A DNA stretch of 64,000 nucleotides from an uncultured Paracoccaceae bacterium (GTDB lineage: Bacteria > Pseudomonadota > Alphaproteobacteria > Rhodobacterales > Rhodobacteraceae): the NCBI GenBank assembly GCA_905182355.1, contig CAJJBH010000026.1:1-64000 (forward strand), in the 5' to 3' direction. The first letter of the stretch is position 1, and each line of letters starts with the position of its first letter. Shown here in pieces: positions 6,737 to 60,239 of the stretch. The notes under the pieces were generated by a model. That model was given only the letters and a program-made list of their open reading frames with translations. It ran no database searches and was not told the DNA's origin. Made by a program: the position numbers and the translations under genes.

Positions 6737-7522
6737 TTACGCGTGTTGGGTCGCTGATAGAAACCCACGTAGACGTTCGGATTTGGGCGCGCCAAAAAAC
6801 GTTTCAGGCGGCCCTTGTTCTTCAATCAACCCTTGGTGCAGGAACACGGTGTGATCCGAAACATCGGCGGCCAATTTCATGTCATGTGTGACGATCATCA
6901 TGGTGCGCCCTTCGGCGGCCAAATCTTTGATCACCTTCACAACTTCTTGTTCTAACTCTGGATCCAACGCTGACGTTGGTTCATCAAACAACAGCGCCTC
7001 GGGTTCCATGCACAGCGCACGCGCGATGGCGGCACGTTGTTGTTGGCCACCAGACAATTGCGCTGGGAATGCATCGCATTTGTCGCCGATACCAACCTTG
7101 TCTAAGTAACGTCGTGCGGATGCTTCGACCTCATCACGATCCCGTTTCAAAACGGTCAATGGGGCTTCCATCACGTTCTGAAGGATGCTCATGTGGGCCC
7201 ACAAATTGAACTGTTGAAAGACCATCGATAGATTTGTGCGAATACGCTGCACCTGCTTGTTTTCAGCAGGGCGGCGGTTGTGGCCTGTTCCACGCCACGT
7301 GACGGGTTCGCCCTTGAATAGTATTTGGCCTTGTTGGCTATCTTCCAAAAGGTTGCAACAGCGCAGTAACGTAGACTTACCTGATCCGGATGAACCGATC
7401 AACGATACGACATCCCCGCGTTTCGCTGAAATATCAACACCTTTCAGGACCTCCAAAGCACCATAGGCTTTGTGAAGGTTTTGAATCTCTATGACGGGTT
7501 GATCTAACTGTGTCGCTGTCAT
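6737..7522 (-). CDS. polar amino acid ABC transporter ATP-binding protein (HisP/GlnQ type)
   Basis: A 261-residue ATPase with Walker A GSSGSGKST, signature LSGGQQQR, Walker B LLFDEPTSAL and the switch histidine in VTHDM. The insert after Walker A (GEPVTWRGTGHNRRPAENKQVQRIRTN) is the feature seen in HisP/OccP-type ATPases. It is the first gene of the operon that continues through binding protein, two permeases, two ligases, amidotransferase and oxidoreductase. The 119-nt region upstream probably holds the promoter, but I cannot place the boxes. Confidence 0.95.
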   Translation of the reverse strand: MTATQLDQPVIEIQNLHKAYGALEVLKGVDISAKRGDVVSLIGSSGSGKSTLLRCCNLLEDSQQGQILFKGEPVTWRGTGHNRRPAENKQVQRIRTNLSMVFQQFNLWAHMSILQNVMEAPLTVLKRDRDEVEASARRYLDKVGIGDKCDAFPAQLSGGQQQRAAIARALCMEPEALLFDEPTSALDPELEQEVVKVIKDLAAEGRTMMIVTHDMKLAADVSDHTVFLHQGLIEEQGPPETFFGAPKSERLRGFLSATQHA

Positions 7523-7641
7523 GGTCTACTTCGATAAACTGTTCAGACGTGATAGGAGGCGAATTTTAGCCCCTTTGCAACTTACAATGTGAATGCGCGC
7601 CCTGATTTTCTGTGAAAAATAAGGTGACGTTGCAGTAACCG

Positions 7642-8391
7642 TTAAGGCAAAGGCGGAATCGGGATTTCAAGATACGCGCTGGACGGGAGTTGCACCAAAC
7701 CATTCAGTAAAAGCGCATCACGGGTCACTGCTGGCAGGGCCGCGATTGCATGTTCAACTGCCGTTGCAATTGCGTCCGAATCTTGACGCAGCGACGTGAT
7801 GAAAGGCAGGGCGGGTGTTGGTGCAGTTTTTGCAATAACTCTAAGCTGTTGCGCGGTTTCCCGGTCATCAATTTGTAGCATTTCCCAAGTTACAGCATCA
7901 ATGGCGGTAAAGTCGGCTTTACCAATTGCCACAGCCTGTGCCGAGGCTTTGTGACCTCCAGTGCAGGGGCCTATTTTAAATGCTACACCAGCCGTTTTCA
8001 TGTGCGCGTAAGGTGCCGCCCAGCCTGATTGGGACAACCCGTCATTGTAGGCAATTCGCATATTGTTCAGCGCGTGGATGTTTTGGAGAACCGAGGTGTT
8101 TTGCACCACAATTACACTGCAATAATATCCAGCAGGGCAACCGTTGATCCCATAGTCGGGGGTGCCCACAAGTTGAACCTTGTCGTGAAGTTTAGCACGA
8201 TATGGTAGGCCACAGGTCTGGGAGAAAACCAAGTCAGGGCTTTGCCAAATGTCCCACGCATCCTTGTCGCGGGTTAAGTGGCCTGGTCCGTATCCCAGAT
8301 GGTTTCGGGCCAATTCCCAAAGCGTATCGTTGGCCGCAGATGTGTGTGGATAATCGTACATACCAAGGGATGCAAATCCGCCTTGGATCAA
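7642..8391 (-). CDS. PhnD-like substrate-binding-fold protein without signal peptide
   Basis: A 249-residue protein of the phosphate/phosphite/phosphonate binding-protein fold (PF12974-like). It shows WQSPDLVFSQTCGLPYRAKL, then GCPAGYYCSVIVV, NMRIAYNDGLSQSGW and ADFTAIDAVTWEML, in the order expected for the two lobes. No signal peptide is present at its start (MIQGGFASLGMYDYP), and no permease or ATPase adjoins it. It may therefore be a cytoplasmic sensor or unlinked binder. Its start overlaps the stop of the TerB-like gene by 4 bases. Function unassigned. Confidence 0.75.
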   Translation of the reverse strand: MIQGGFASLGMYDYPHTSAANDTLWELARNHLGYGPGHLTRDKDAWDIWQSPDLVFSQTCGLPYRAKLHDKVQLVGTPDYGINGCPAGYYCSVIVVQNTSVLQNIHALNNMRIAYNDGLSQSGWAAPYAHMKTAGVAFKIGPCTGGHKASAQAVAIGKADFTAIDAVTWEMLQIDDRETAQQLRVIAKTAPTPALPFITSLRQDSDAIATAVEHAIAALPAVTRDALLLNGLVQLPSSAYLEIPIPPLP

Positions 8392-8822
8392 GATGTAACT
8401 CTTTGACGTGCAAGGGCACTATCACGATCACTGACGCCCAAAAGGTGGGAGACAAGACGCAAAACGGTATCTTCATCGTCGGTGCGTTCACCATCGGCCA
8501 AAGCAACTTGCCATAAGGCTTCTATCACATCGACACGATCATCATAGGCAACCGTATCTTTGATCGCGCGAGTGAACCGGACGGTGTCTGGCGCTTCGGT
8601 TTCAAGTTGTTCGGCGTTGTTGCGCAGGGATGTAACCGCCGCCGCGTCTAGTTCGTAACGGGTGGCCGTGATTGTATCAATCCGTGCCTTTTCGTCGGCA
8701 TCATATTCACCGTCCGTGCGGGCGACCCGAACAAGCAATGCTGTCAACGCAAGCCGTGCATCAGTTTCGGGCAATTGGGTGGGGGCGGGAGCGGTCAAGC
8801 GCTTAAGGAAATCTGCAAACAT
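8388..8822 (-). CDS. TerB-like (tellurite resistance TerB / DjlA N-terminal fold) protein
   Basis: A 144-residue all-helical soluble protein. Two similar acidic helix-turn motifs, RTDGEYDADEKARI and LADGERTDDEDTVL, are the hallmark of TerB-family metal-binding repeats. The surrounding ALTALLVRVA and VIEALWQVA helices also fit. The family is associated with membranes and metal stress, but many members have no known role, and no other ter genes are nearby. It is coupled by a 4-base overlap to the PhnD-like gene downstream. Confidence 0.8.
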   Translation of the reverse strand: MFADFLKRLTAPAPTQLPETDARLALTALLVRVARTDGEYDADEKARIDTITATRYELDAAAVTSLRNNAEQLETEAPDTVRFTRAIKDTVAYDDRVDVIEALWQVALADGERTDDEDTVLRLVSHLLGVSDRDSALARQRVTS

Positions 8823-32881: not shown

Positions 32882-34357
32882 ATGCAGCCCAAAGCGGTAG
32901 CCTTGTCGAAAGAAATGAAACCCCTAATTCAAATGCGTGGCCTTTGGCTGGGATTTTTGGCGACAGCGCTGATTCTAGCGCAAGTTATAATGGCCAATGC
33001 CCGACCCGAAAGCCTTGCCCCACTGGCAGAGAAAATCAGCCCCTCAGTTGTGAACATCACAACTTCCACTGTTGTGGAACGTCCTACTGGTCCTCAAGGT
33101 ATCGTGCCCGAAGGCTCCCCATTTGAGGACTTTTTTAACAACCGTCGCAACAATGACGAAGGCAACGGTCAACGCCCACGCCGTTCTTCTGCGTTGGGTT
33201 CTGGTTTTGTGATCTCTGAAGATGGGTACATTGTAACCAACAACCACGTCATCGAAGGCGCGGATGAAATCCTGATTGAATTCTTTTCGGGCGAAGAACT
33301 GCCTGCGAAAGTGATCGGTACTGACCCGAACACAGACATCGCATTGTTGAAAGTTGAAACAGACGTTCCTTTGCCGTTTGTTCCGTTTGGCAACAGTGAC
33401 GGCGCGCGTGTTGGCGACTGGGTCATCGCGATGGGCAATCCATTGGGCCAAGGGTTTTCTGTTTCGGCAGGTATCGTATCAGCCCGTAACCGCGCCTTAA
33501 GCGGCACCTATGACGACTACATCCAGACAGATGCAGCGATTAATCGTGGGAACTCTGGCGGCCCCTTGTTCAATATGGACGGCGAAGTTGTTGGTGTGAA
33601 CACCGCAATCCTGTCCCCAAATGGTGGGTCTATTGGCATCGGGTTCTCTATGGCGTCCAACGTCGTATCCCGTGTTGTGGATCAATTGCGCGAGTTTGGT
33701 GAAACACGTCGCGGTTGGTTGGGTGTACGCATCCAAGACCTGACTGATGATCTGGCTGAAGGGTTCGGATTGGACAGCACTGACGGTGCATTGGTCAATT
33801 CGGTTCAGGAAGGTCCATCAAAAGACGGCGGCATGCTGGACGGCGATGTGATTGTGAATTTTGCAGGCAAGCCTGTGAAAGACACACGTGGTCTTGTGCG
33901 CAGTGTTGCCAACAGTCCAGTGGGCGAAACCGTGCGTGTGATTGTGCTGCGTGAAGGCAAATCAGTGACGTTGAAAATCACGTTGGGCCGTCGTGAAGAA
34001 GCAGAAAAAACCGTGCAAACGGCAGCGCCAGTACCTGAAGAAGAAGCCGCACCTGAGACAAAGATGCTGCTAGGCCTGACGCTTAGTGTGCTGACGGACG
34101 AGTTCCGCAGGGGGCTTGGTCTTGAGGCCAACCAAACAGGTCTGGTGATCACTGAAGTTGATGAAGCGTCTGAAGCGTTCGAAAAAGGACTGCGCGCAGG
34201 GGATGTGATCACAGAAGCGGGTCAAGAAAAGATCGAAGGTATTGCTGATCTTGATGCGCGATTGGCCGAAGTCAAAGATGCAGGTCGCAAGTCACTGCTT
34301 TTGCTGGTGCGTCGTGGTGGTGATCCACGGTTTGTGGCCCTTAGCCTCGCTGACTGA
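32882..34357 (+). CDS. Do-like periplasmic serine protease/chaperone (DegP/DegQ type)
   Basis: A 491-residue HtrA protease. The signal anchor ends around MANARPESLA. The trypsin fold has an intact triad: His in VTNNHVIEGADE, Asp in DPNTDIALLKVE and Ser in INRGNSGGPLFN. Two PDZ domains follow (about residues 270-360 and 400-485). AGGAG precedes the ATG. It degrades misfolded envelope proteins. It follows hflKC and DUF2065 with a 178-nt spacer, so it may have its own promoter. Confidence 0.95.
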   Translation: MQPKAVALSKEMKPLIQMRGLWLGFLATALILAQVIMANARPESLAPLAEKISPSVVNITTSTVVERPTGPQGIVPEGSPFEDFFNNRRNNDEGNGQRPRRSSALGSGFVISEDGYIVTNNHVIEGADEILIEFFSGEELPAKVIGTDPNTDIALLKVETDVPLPFVPFGNSDGARVGDWVIAMGNPLGQGFSVSAGIVSARNRALSGTYDDYIQTDAAINRGNSGGPLFNMDGEVVGVNTAILSPNGGSIGIGFSMASNVVSRVVDQLREFGETRRGWLGVRIQDLTDDLAEGFGLDSTDGALVNSVQEGPSKDGGMLDGDVIVNFAGKPVKDTRGLVRSVANSPVGETVRVIVLREGKSVTLKITLGRREEAEKTVQTAAPVPEEEAAPETKMLLGLTLSVLTDEFRRGLGLEANQTGLVITEVDEASEAFEKGLRAGDVITEAGQEKIEGIADLDARLAEVKDAGRKSLLLLVRRGGDPRFVALSLAD

Positions 34358-51199: not shown

Positions 51200-52999
51200 T
51201 TACTTCCAGCAGCTGACCAAGACGGTCATACCACGGGCCGTTTCCGAAATATCTTGGGCTGCCATCGGCGCGTTTGATCCAGAAGTGCGACCCGTCTTGC
51301 CAGCTCCATTTAGCGCAGCTTGAACGGTATCACGGTTTAAGGAAAAGCTTACATCGCTTGGCAAGCCGGCACTGTCTTTGGCGGTGGGCAACAGCATGCC
51401 CAATACACCCCCTGTCGAATCTAGAACTGGACCACCTGCATCGCCTGGCAGCGCTGACAATGCCAAACGGTTCAACTGTTCTTCGCCGCGCAGGCCACGC
51501 AGGTCGGACAGGGTACCATAAGTCATTGATGGTGAATTCAAAACGCCCTCGTAACTGTACCCAGCAACTGCAATTTCGCTGTTCAGGCGTGGGGTTTGTG
51601 CGCTAAAGGCGGCAACATCCAAAGGCGCCAAAGCGCTTTTGGGTTCTAAAATGGCAATGCCATCTGCTGTGGTGGACACCAAATCGGCCTCATATACCTC
51701 GTCCAGGGTGATACGTGTGCAGCTGTCCACTACGTCAGAAGTGGTCACCACTGTGCCAAGATCGTCTACATAAAACCCAGACCGCGAAATCGCTGGTTGG
51801 CGAATTTTCAAGGCAGACACCAAATCGATAGCCTGATCGTCATTTGATCTGACTGCAGGGTCCAGAACATTATCCAAAAGAACCAAGGATTTGTCCATTT
51901 CGCCAACCAAGCGGCGGCGGCGTTCCTCGTCTCCTGCTCGCCACAGCAGTGTGAATCCTTTGACCTTACCATCCGCCAAACTCACACGGGTCTCACTGAC
52001 CATCGTGGCGCTTTCACCAATCAAAACAAAGCTGTTCTTTTTACGCTCGCGTGGGCCATCAATAGGCACAATTTCCAACGTCTGCATGATGTCGTACAGG
52101 CCATACAAGGTGTTTTGATCACCTGGTTGGCTGATCAGAAGAACACGGGCACCAATGTCACCAACAGATTTGTATTGTGCAAACGGGGACTCGTATTTTT
52201 CGAACGCGACTTCGATGGTTGGCAGCATGATCTCGATGCCTGCTGCATCGTCACGGACCACCTCAAAACCCAGACCATCCAATATGGAATTGTATTTTTT
52301 CAACAACTCGGCACGCTGGCTGGTGGTTAGAATACCAGTGACGGCACGATCATTGGCCTCTTGCCACGCGGCCATCGAATTGCGCGTACCGCGACCAAAA
52401 TACCCATCAATGGCTGCGTTGTAAAAGCCAGCCCATTGCAACAACCGCTGCAAGTCCTTCTTTGCTTCGCGATTAAGGGCACGTTCACTACGCTTCGCCT
52501 CAGTTGGGGTTTCGCCCGCAGGGACAACAGGTTTTGCAATAACACCTGAAACAGTAGGTGTTTCTTCAATAACTGCTTCAGGTGCCTGGACCACATCCGT
52601 CGCAGACTCAACTACCGTTTCAGGCACGGCAAGCACGCCGCGATCCAAGATATTTGCACCAATGGGCCAAAATTGCTGGCGCAGGGCAGATGATATCACA
52701 ATAAAGGAATCGCTTGGGATCACGCGGTCACGGCGATAAGCACGCAATACGGCTTCGGCATCATTGCGCGTATATGGGCCAACTGTGATTCCGTACCATC
52801 CGCTGCCAAGGGCAAATCCGTTCACATCTTCCAAACTATCTGCATATAAGCGTGCGCTTTCGGTGCCTGCACGTAGACTTGACTGTGCTTCTATCTGGAT
52901 CCAGACCACATCATCCTGTGATTGGGCGGAAACTGGCAATGTCCATGCCAAAGTCACAACGGTTAACGTAAATACTGCCTGCAAAATCTTATGAATCAT
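51200..52999 (-). CDS. exported SPOR + PG-binding + trypsin-fold pseudoprotease
   Basis: 599 residues from the ATG at 52999 with a signal peptide ending LPVSAQ. An N-terminal SPOR-like domain (WIQIEAQSSLRAG, GWYGITVGPYTRNDAEAVL, residues 30-110) is followed by a PG_binding_1 repeat (LQRLLQWAGFYNAAIDGYFGRGTRNSMAAWQ). The C-terminal chymotrypsin fold has TTSDVVDSC where TxxHVV is expected (about 422), GIAIL where D-x-A is expected (about 447), and PGDAGGPVLD where GNSGGP is expected (Ala at about 521). The His, Asp and Ser are all lost, so it should bind rather than cut. Confidence 0.85.
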   Translation of the reverse strand: MIHKILQAVFTLTVVTLAWTLPVSAQSQDDVVWIQIEAQSSLRAGTESARLYADSLEDVNGFALGSGWYGITVGPYTRNDAEAVLRAYRRDRVIPSDSFIVISSALRQQFWPIGANILDRGVLAVPETVVESATDVVQAPEAVIEETPTVSGVIAKPVVPAGETPTEAKRSERALNREAKKDLQRLLQWAGFYNAAIDGYFGRGTRNSMAAWQEANDRAVTGILTTSQRAELLKKYNSILDGLGFEVVRDDAAGIEIMLPTIEVAFEKYESPFAQYKSVGDIGARVLLISQPGDQNTLYGLYDIMQTLEIVPIDGPRERKKNSFVLIGESATMVSETRVSLADGKVKGFTLLWRAGDEERRRRLVGEMDKSLVLLDNVLDPAVRSNDDQAIDLVSALKIRQPAISRSGFYVDDLGTVVTTSDVVDSCTRITLDEVYEADLVSTTADGIAILEPKSALAPLDVAAFSAQTPRLNSEIAVAGYSYEGVLNSPSMTYGTLSDLRGLRGEEQLNRLALSALPGDAGGPVLDSTGGVLGMLLPTAKDSAGLPSDVSFSLNRDTVQAALNGAGKTGRTSGSNAPMAAQDISETARGMTVLVSCWK

Positions 53000-53200: not shown

Positions 53201-54139
53201 ATGTCCATGAACTCCACAACACCCCGTTCGTTTCAGGAAATCATACTACGCCTTCAAGCGTATTGGGCGTCCAAAGGCTGTGCTATTTTGCAACCTTATG
53301 ACATGGAAGTCGGAGCAGGGACGTTCCATCCTGCCACAACATTGCGCAGCCTTGGGTCAAACCCGTGGGCGGCAGCCTATGTCCAGCCCTCGCGCCGCCC
53401 GACAGACGGTCGATACGGCGAAAACCCGAACCGTTTACAGCACTATTACCAGTACCAAGTGTTAATCAAACCCAGCCCACCCGAACTTCAAGCATTATAC
53501 CTTGGGTCTCTGGAAGCCATCGGCGTCGATATGGACCTTCACGACATTCGCTTTGTCGAAGACGATTGGGAAAGTCCGACCCTTGGCGCATGGGGCCTTG
53601 GTTGGGAGGTCTGGTGTGACGGCATGGAAGTGTCACAATTCACCTACTTTCAACAGGTTGGGGGACATGACTGTACGCCTGTTTCTGGCGAATTAACTTA
53701 CGGGTTAGAACGCTTGGCGATGTATATCCTTGAGTGTGACCACGTTATGGACATGCCATTCAATGATCCGGACGCGACAATCCCTTTAAAATACGGCGAT
53801 ATATTCAAACAAACAGAAGAAGAATATGCACGCTGGAATTTCGACGTAGCCAACACGGACGTGTTGCTGCGCCACTTTGTGGAAGCAGAGGCAGAATGCG
53901 AAGCCATCCTGTCACACGCGTTTGACGATCCGAAGACGGGCAAACGCATCATCATGGTGCACCCCGCCTATGACCAAGCAATCAAAGCCAGCCATATCTT
54001 CAACCTGCTCGACGCACGTGGCGTGATCTCGGTCACGGAACGCCAAGCCTACATTGGACGGGTACGGACGCTGTCAAAGCAATGCGCGGATGCTTTTGTA
54101 CAAACCCGCGCTGGCGGATATATTGAGGCGGCAGAATAA
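53201..54139 (+). CDS. glyQ: glycyl-tRNA synthetase alpha subunit
   Basis: 312 residues of the alpha2-beta2 bacterial enzyme. It has [64 protein letters not shown] and [13 protein letters not shown]. The stop overlaps the next gene by one base. The upstream 100-nt spacer includes TTGACC with a 17-nt gap to TAGGAA, a weak promoter candidate. Confidence 0.98.
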
Positions 54140-54654
54140 TGGGAAAGTTTTTAGCAGTGTTACTCCTTGGAAGTGCAGTCATCGCAGGGGCGTCTATGTA
54201 TTACCTGCAAGTTTACGGGTTATATGACGAGGTCACGGAACGCGACGTGAAGCTGGTTTCAGTTGTCGACGATCTTCCCGAATCCATCAGCTTTGACAAC
54301 TTTGAGGCAATCGATTCTGAAAGCTCCCCCATCCGCTATCGGGCTTGTTTCACCACAGACCTAAGCCTGTCATTGCTGACAGAAACATACGTTGGCTTAG
54401 AAAGCGTCAAGCTGCGCAACGCACCAGAGTGGTTCGACTGCTTTGATGCAGGTGCCATCGATGCGCAACTTCTGGCAGGAACAGCCCTGCCATTCTTGGG
54501 CGAAAAGAACGTGCGCTTTGGCGTTGATCGCATCGTTGTAATCACCGACGACGGACGCGGCTATATCTGGCATGACTTGAACGACTGCGGCGACAAAGCA
54601 TACGACGGCACAATCGTTGGCGAAGAATGTCCAGGACGGGAAACAAGTGAATGA
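54139..54654 (+). CDS. DUF6446-type anchored protein between glyQ and glyS
   Basis: 171 residues. One N-terminal helix (FLAVLLLGSAVIAGASMYYLQVYG), then a soluble periplasmic domain with four Cys (YRACFTTD, WFDCFDAG, LNDCGDK, GEECPG) that may form two disulphides. It sits between glyQ and glyS with start and stop overlaps to both, as in other Rhodobacteraceae. No relation to tRNA charging is evident. Confidence 0.82.
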   Translation: MGKFLAVLLLGSAVIAGASMYYLQVYGLYDEVTERDVKLVSVVDDLPESISFDNFEAIDSESSPIRYRACFTTDLSLSLLTETYVGLESVKLRNAPEWFDCFDAGAIDAQLLAGTALPFLGEKNVRFGVDRIVVITDDGRGYIWHDLNDCGDKAYDGTIVGEECPGRETSE

Positions 54655-59448: not shown

Positions 59449-59600
59449 GGGGTGATCTTCCTATCCGCTACATTCAGTGTGACATCATATTTTTGTGGGC
59501 TTTTCCAAAGGCGTGCAGTTTTGACATGTCCCTACGTATACTGGACGAACACTTCCAAAACCTCTAAATGGCGGTGAACGAAACAACGCTGGAGCGCCGA

Positions 59601-60239
59601 ATGCGTGCCGCCAAAATTTTGAAACTTGCGCTTTGCGTCACTGCGACACTTGTCGTGCCATTGTCGGCCTCCGCGAATGAAGCACAGGCCAAGGCCCTGC
59701 AGAAAACCGAGAAGCGTGGTTTGTCATCTGTTTCAAAGCTAAAGTTAAATAGTCTGGTCAAAGCGCCACCTAAGGCGAAAGGGGTGCATTTTTCGCGCGT
59801 CTGGCTGGATGCACAACCCAAAGCCAAAGGCGACGCTCAATGGGCCTGCTTGTCCGAAGCTTTGTACTTTGAAGCACGTGGCGAAACGGTCAAAGGTCAA
59901 TTTGCTGTGGCCGAAGTTATTATGAACCGCGTGGCGCACTCCCGCTTTCCGCAGACACTTTGTGGCGTGATCAATCAAGGTACTGGTAAAAAGTATGGCT
60001 GCCAATTCACCTATACATGTGATGGCATTGCAGAAAAAATTAATGAACCAAGGGCATTCTCACGTGTGTCAAAGGTGGCACGTGCCGTGATTGACAGCAA
60101 AGCGCCAAAATTGACCAATGGTGCAACCCATTATCATACGACTGCTGTTAGCCCTAGTTGGGGACGGGTTTATACCAAGGTTGCTCGGATTGGCGTTCAC
60201 ATTTTTTATCGACATAACGTCCGTTCGGTGTCCAACTGA
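59601..60239 (+). CDS. SleB/CwlJ-type cell wall hydrolase
   Basis: 212 residues from the ATG at 59601, which has GGAG 6 nt upstream. Signal peptide MRAAKILKLALCVTATLVVPLSASA. The Hydrolase_2 domain starts WACLSEALYFEARGETVKGQFAVAEVIMNRVAHSRFP, with the catalytic Glu in the ARGE motif, followed by GCQFTYTCDG and ATHYHTTAVSPSWG. It cleaves peptidoglycan in the periplasm. Monocistronic. Confidence 0.92.
   Translation: MRAAKILKLALCVTATLVVPLSASANEAQAKALQKTEKRGLSSVSKLKLNSLVKAPPKAKGVHFSRVWLDAQPKAKGDAQWACLSEALYFEARGETVKGQFAVAEVIMNRVAHSRFPQTLCGVINQGTGKKYGCQFTYTCDGIAEKINEPRAFSRVSKVARAVIDSKAPKLTNGATHYHTTAVSPSWGRVYTKVARIGVHIFYRHNVRSVSN

Follow-up and report, generated by a model that had tools for sequence, protein, structure and literature searches.

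The window analysed here is a stretch of 64,000 nucleotides from an uncultured Paracoccaceae bacterium. Towards its right-hand end, on the minus strand, lies a gene for a multidomain protein whose C-terminal domain holds the fold of trypsin-like proteases and none of their catalytic residues. The start site of this coding sequence is the one found in its orthologues. The features of the gene and of its surroundings are the following:

51200..52999, minus strand: pseudoprotease CDS, 599 aa, with its ATG at 52999 and its TAA stop at 51200-51202
52925..52999, minus strand: predicted signal peptide, residues 1-25 (MIHK...PVSA), a hydrophobic N-terminus in the sequence and a helix (2-19) in the model
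52649..52918, minus strand: SPOR-like domain, residues 28-117, with Gln35 kept and the glycan-site Arg replaced by Gly70; orthologues match PF05036
52310..52459, minus strand: PG_binding_1 domain, residues 181-230 (Pfam PF01471, E 4e-11)
51842..52288, minus strand: Mog1/PsbP-like domain, residues 238-386, from its own model and a match to CyanoP (2xb3), outside any Pfam family
51296..51802, minus strand: trypsin/HtrA-fold pseudoprotease domain, residues 400-568 (Trypsin_2, E 1e-13; DegS, Z 20.9, rmsd 2.1 A)
51734..51736, minus strand: codon of Asp422, at the catalytic His position, from alignments to intact-triad relatives and to solved structures
51659..51661, minus strand: codon of Gly447, at the catalytic Asp position, from the same alignments
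51437..51439, minus strand: codon of Ala521, at the catalytic Ser position, in the loop GDAGGP (519-524), from the same alignments
51719..51721, minus strand: Cys427, invariant by the cysteine counts in aligned orthologues, probable disulfide partner
51209..51211, minus strand: Cys597, invariant by the same counts, in a C-terminal Cys-Trp motif
54139-54654, plus strand: DUF6446 gene between glyQ and glyS, a position kept in 13 of 14 sampled genomes
59568-60239, plus strand: Hydrolase_2 gene (cell wall hydrolase, SleB/CwlJ-like), part of the block that includes glyQ, glyS and ppdK
32882-34357, plus strand: intact DegP-type protease (TNNHV, TDIALL, GNSGGP), about 17 kb from the pseudoprotease gene

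The full-length protein is predicted with a mean pLDDT of 90. An earlier note, made from the DNA sequence, had described a trypsin-fold C-terminal domain, a SPOR-like domain and a PG-binding repeat. The first of these is borne out by Pfam, in which PF13365 (Trypsin_2) scores 52.6 bits against a cut-off of 27.6, and by the model of the domain, which superposes on the HtrA protein DegS over 161 residues. The peptidoglycan-binding part is confirmed as a single PG_binding_1 domain (43.2 against a gathering cut-off of 23), not as a repeat. The SPOR assignment comes from the relatives: the window protein itself gives no match to PF05036 in Pfam, whereas 26 of 33 orthologous N-terminal domains do, the best at 1e-8. 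No PDZ domain was found in the window protein by Pfam up to E 1, and 31 residues remain past the fold match.

Two features did not figure in the earlier note: a Mog1/PsbP-like domain and an invariant pair of cysteines. Modelled alone, residues 238-386 reach a pLDDT of 92 and match CyanoP 2xb3 (Foldseek E 1.5e-5; Z 11.7, rmsd 3.6 A, 131 residues). PsbP/CyanoP and Mog1 stand at the top of both lists of structure matches, with Z values of 10-11.7 over about 130 of 150 residues, and a Pfam scan of this domain in 96 family members returned scattered weak matches and no family. The mature part of the protein holds exactly two cysteines, C427 and C597, in all 96 full-length orthologues, and these residues probably form a disulfide. 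Both also occur in each of the ten relatives that keep the triad and are not of the DegP type; the DegP-type sequences have neither.

The His-Asp-Ser triad that marks an active S1 serine protease is replaced in the window protein by D422, G447 and A521. These are the Asp, Gly and Ala that had been read from the sequence at the three sites, and two kinds of alignment agree on them: phmmer alignment to the solved Deg1, HhoA and MarP chains, and alignment to relatives that keep the triad. The sole His of the protein, at residue 3, belongs to the signal peptide. As the mature protein has no His, a displaced or rearranged His triad is impossible, and with it the competent triad elsewhere in the domain that could have overturned the earlier reading.

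The absence of the triad is a property of the whole family. Among 149 sequences of the triad-less clade, the His site holds Glu in 92, Asp in 26, Gln in 15, Ala in 8 and a few others in the remainder, and never His. The Asp site holds Gly in 137 and Asp in 2, and the Ser site holds Ala in 107, Val in 18, Thr and Trp in 5 each, Ser and Ile in 4 each, and others including Phe. No sequence of the clade keeps more than one catalytic residue. Given these counts, the loss of the triad in the window protein is not a matter of chance. Since the letters vary at each site (E/D/Q; G; A/V/T/W), what is fixed is the lack of a triad, and the exact Asp/Gly/Ala combination, whose fixation the earlier note had proposed to examine, is not. 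Trp stands in place of the catalytic Ser in L105 and in four further members of the family, where it would fill the cleft.

The loop around the lost Ser behaves differently. The GDxGGP sequence is near-invariant, with Gly193 in 147, Asp194 in 148, Gly196 in 149 and Pro198 in 147 of the 149 sequences. The catalytic letters are thus free within limits while the surrounding loop is constrained. Position 194 is Asp in the pseudoprotease clade, in contrast to Asn or Ser in active relatives, and residues fixed specifically in this clade include Asp520, Arg511 and Trp598.

The relatives were drawn from 61 related genomes, a scan of GTDB species (80 loci) and 296 Rhodobacteraceae genomes. The domain is matched at E 1e-3 or better in 268 of the 296, the weakest matches including some active relatives. 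In a careful tree of 41 domains, built without the three catalytic columns and rooted on DegP-type sequences, the triad-less sequences form one clade (100/99, in a bootstrap not fully settled), nested among proteases with an intact triad and the cysteine pair; a larger quick tree agrees, with a support of 81. The triad was therefore lost once, in an ancient event within active Cys-pair proteases. One active relative, L147 from genome G181, combines SPOR (E 4e-17), PG_binding (1e-17) and a weak central match (1e-3) with a trypsin domain that keeps His, Asp and Ser; an active protease bound to the wall is a plausible ancestor.

After the loss, the trypsin-like domain has remained under strong purifying selection. 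Its median dN/dS (at most 13 disjoint pairs) is 0.08, as for PG_binding (0.08), next to 0.05 for the SPOR and central domains and 0.28 for the linker. Mean column identity is highest in the central domain, at 68%; the alignment as a whole has 53%. The possibility that the window copy is decaying is rejected, as this copy departs at only 1 of about 101 near-invariant positions; intact close relatives depart at 0-1, and broken copies at 12 and 8. The earlier proposal of a fold retained without decay is hence upheld by the single ancient origin, the near-invariant GDxGGP loop and the strength of purifying selection; the envelope scaffold or regulator that the note read into the protein stays a proposal.

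The broken copies, with different stops, belong to G004 (L006/L056; 12 changed positions) and G006 (L028; 8 changed positions), which are reduced genomes from the same genus. The different stops suggest separate or ongoing loss, and the gene can thus be lost. L028 carries frame breaks as well. Two further copies on the glyQ side have changed in the trypsin domain itself. In L196 (G034) the SPOR-like and central parts are kept and the trypsin domain is gone, so that this domain is not indispensable everywhere, and in L197 (G064) it is very degenerate, with two Cys retained.

The gene occupies one fixed genomic place. In all 143 family loci in which glyQ was found, it lies adjacent and divergent; most loci without glyQ either end too early on that side or belong to active relatives. 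No active relative, L147 included, lies beside glyQ, and in ten glyQ regions checked in genomes without a pseudoprotease copy no relative adjoins it. A block of glyQ, DUF6446, glyS, ppdK and Hydrolase_2 is conserved in 12 of 14 sampled genomes. For the wall hydrolase, RSP_1860 is a tentative candidate counterpart in R. sphaeroides. The main text of a Tn-seq study of R. sphaeroides gives no relevant locus. In a class-wide sample of 241 genomes, a profile of the central domain matched only four members, all from the Rhodobacteraceae, besides one marginal match, and the protein thus appears to be restricted to the Rhodobacteraceae. The genome of the window holds five Trypsin_2 matches, among them the DegP-type protease at 32882-34357. 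Contig C24 of genome G000 carries at 7259-8508 two adjacent Trypsin_2 matches on the minus strand (L179, L181), the first with an in-frame TGA. As a candidate regulatory element, the CenR binding motif TGA-N8-TGA (PMC9275681) was sought between the gene and glyQ and is not enriched, with 7 of 130 regions against 7.6 expected.

With regard to location, the signal peptide and the SPOR-like and PG_binding_1 domains make a place in the envelope plausible, presumably in the periplasm, and the identity of the domains points to anchoring on peptidoglycan. Targeting to peptidoglycan or septa had been proposed earlier; the envelope part of that proposal is plausible and the septal part is weakened. In SPOR domains, a conserved glutamine and an arginine (FtsN Arg285, RlpA Arg309) have roles in the glycan site (PMC6895207). 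The glutamine, Gln35, is retained in 105 of 106 sequences, whereas 103 of 106 have Gly or Ala in the column equivalent to Arg285, which we located by means of the shared W-x-x-x-x-x-G-P motif. As the usual glycan-binding Arg is missing, targeting to the septum becomes less sure than the earlier note implied. The basic patch is built from different residues in different SPOR domains (PMC6895207). Vesicle proteomics of D. shibae names a SPOR protein as an outer-membrane lipoprotein, which is not equated with the pseudoprotease family.

Taken as a whole, we consider it fairly probable that this protein is a secreted, non-catalytic adaptor on the cell wall, whose dead domain is kept for binding. 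The SPOR-like and PG_binding_1 domains would hold it on peptidoglycan, and the Mog1/PsbP-like and dead HtrA-type domains would offer surfaces to which a further envelope protein binds. In this reading the ancestor was an active protease, alike in domain order and in its cysteines, that lost the triad once, prior to the diversification of most of the Rhodobacteraceae; its fold, the backbone of the active-site loop and the probable Cys427-Cys597 disulfide would then have been retained for binding. We infer the binding role from a domain that has lost its catalytic residues yet is preserved by selection, and that probably binds rather than cuts. That the Ser site may hold Ala, Val, Trp, Ile or Phe speaks against a single conserved ligand in the old cleft. 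Against the adaptor reading stand the loss of the trypsin domain in L196 and its degeneration in L197, the broken gene in the two reduced genomes of one genus and the missing glycan-site Arg of the SPOR domain.

Some of the same observations would fit a folded relic, in which the trypsin domain is kept only because an unfolded C-terminus would be destabilising and the function resides in the SPOR, PG_binding_1 and Mog1/PsbP-like parts. The survival of L196 without the domain, the state of L197, the freedom of the Ser-site residue and the top conservation of the central domain speak for this possibility. Nevertheless, the trypsin domain evolves at a dN/dS close to that of PG_binding, and Asp520, Arg511 and Trp598, fixed in the clade, are not obviously required for mere folding; we regard a relic as unlikely. 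Regulation of an active protease, in which the dead domain pairs or competes with a periplasmic DegP/HtrA, appears more doubtful still. Its model is MamO, which activates MamE-dependent proteolysis, a pairing of active and inactive proteins that arose three times in magnetotactic bacteria (PMC4794232), and the window also encodes an intact DegP-type protein. However, DegP is nearly universal and its co-presence tells little, activation by MamO requires a TauE transporter domain that the pseudoprotease lacks, and the latter has no PDZ match.

Even more speculative is a family-wide, disulfide-locked pseudo-HtrA on the wall whose dead domain controls a conserved protease or wall enzyme, such as the block's SleB/CwlJ-like hydrolase; if true, it would be a regulatory pseudoprotease acting in bacterial cell-wall remodelling. 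Finally, the kept glycines of the oxyanion loop speak for an active hydrolase with an unconventional site, but the mature protein has no His, the family has no conserved nucleophile and some orthologues carry bulky residues at the Ser site, which makes such an enzyme very improbable.

To judge from the open literature searched, the family is an undescribed bacterial trypsin-fold pseudoprotease, of a known kind in a new domain context; no description of it was found among open-licence PMC papers, and one may exist elsewhere. It is old, widespread in the Rhodobacteraceae, a large family of marine bacteria, and tied to one genomic place, and few bacterial pseudoproteases of the trypsin fold have a known role. 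An automatic annotation that relied on Trypsin_2 alone would label the protein a peptidase, which is misleading. Among the systems compared, the L147-type protein has the same order of SPOR, PG_binding_1 and trypsin domains and the same cysteine pair, and differs in its intact triad and in not adjoining glyQ. The existence of such a relative, together with a natural domain-loss variant, makes the retention of a dead protease directly testable. DegS and DegP offer the closest solved fold (Z 20.9 for DegS), from which the pseudoprotease differs by its lack of a triad and of a PDZ match and by a Cys pair missing from the DegP-like relatives examined. MarP (Rv3671c) has a similar fold (Z 18.9) and gives a weak family match (E 4e-7; 29.4 bits for NF033740, far below the curated cut-off of 250), but it is an active protease, and its aligned sequence has no Cys at the place equivalent to Cys427.

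The closest precedent is MamO, the main worked example found and an experimentally shown case of a repurposed bacterial trypsin-fold domain, which is no longer catalytic, holds metal with a pair of histidines and activates MamE via another domain (PMC4794232). Both proteins have a trypsin/HtrA (Trypsin_2) fold with a degenerate triad, within a single alphaproteobacterial clade and with the fold reused non-catalytically (PMC4794232), as is proposed here for the adaptor. MamO is distinguished by a residue other than Gly at position 193, by its TauE domain and by a di-histidine metal site on its surface; the pseudoprotease, in contrast, keeps Gly193, has no His in its mature form and joins its trypsin fold to SPOR, PG_binding_1 and Mog1/PsbP-like domains.
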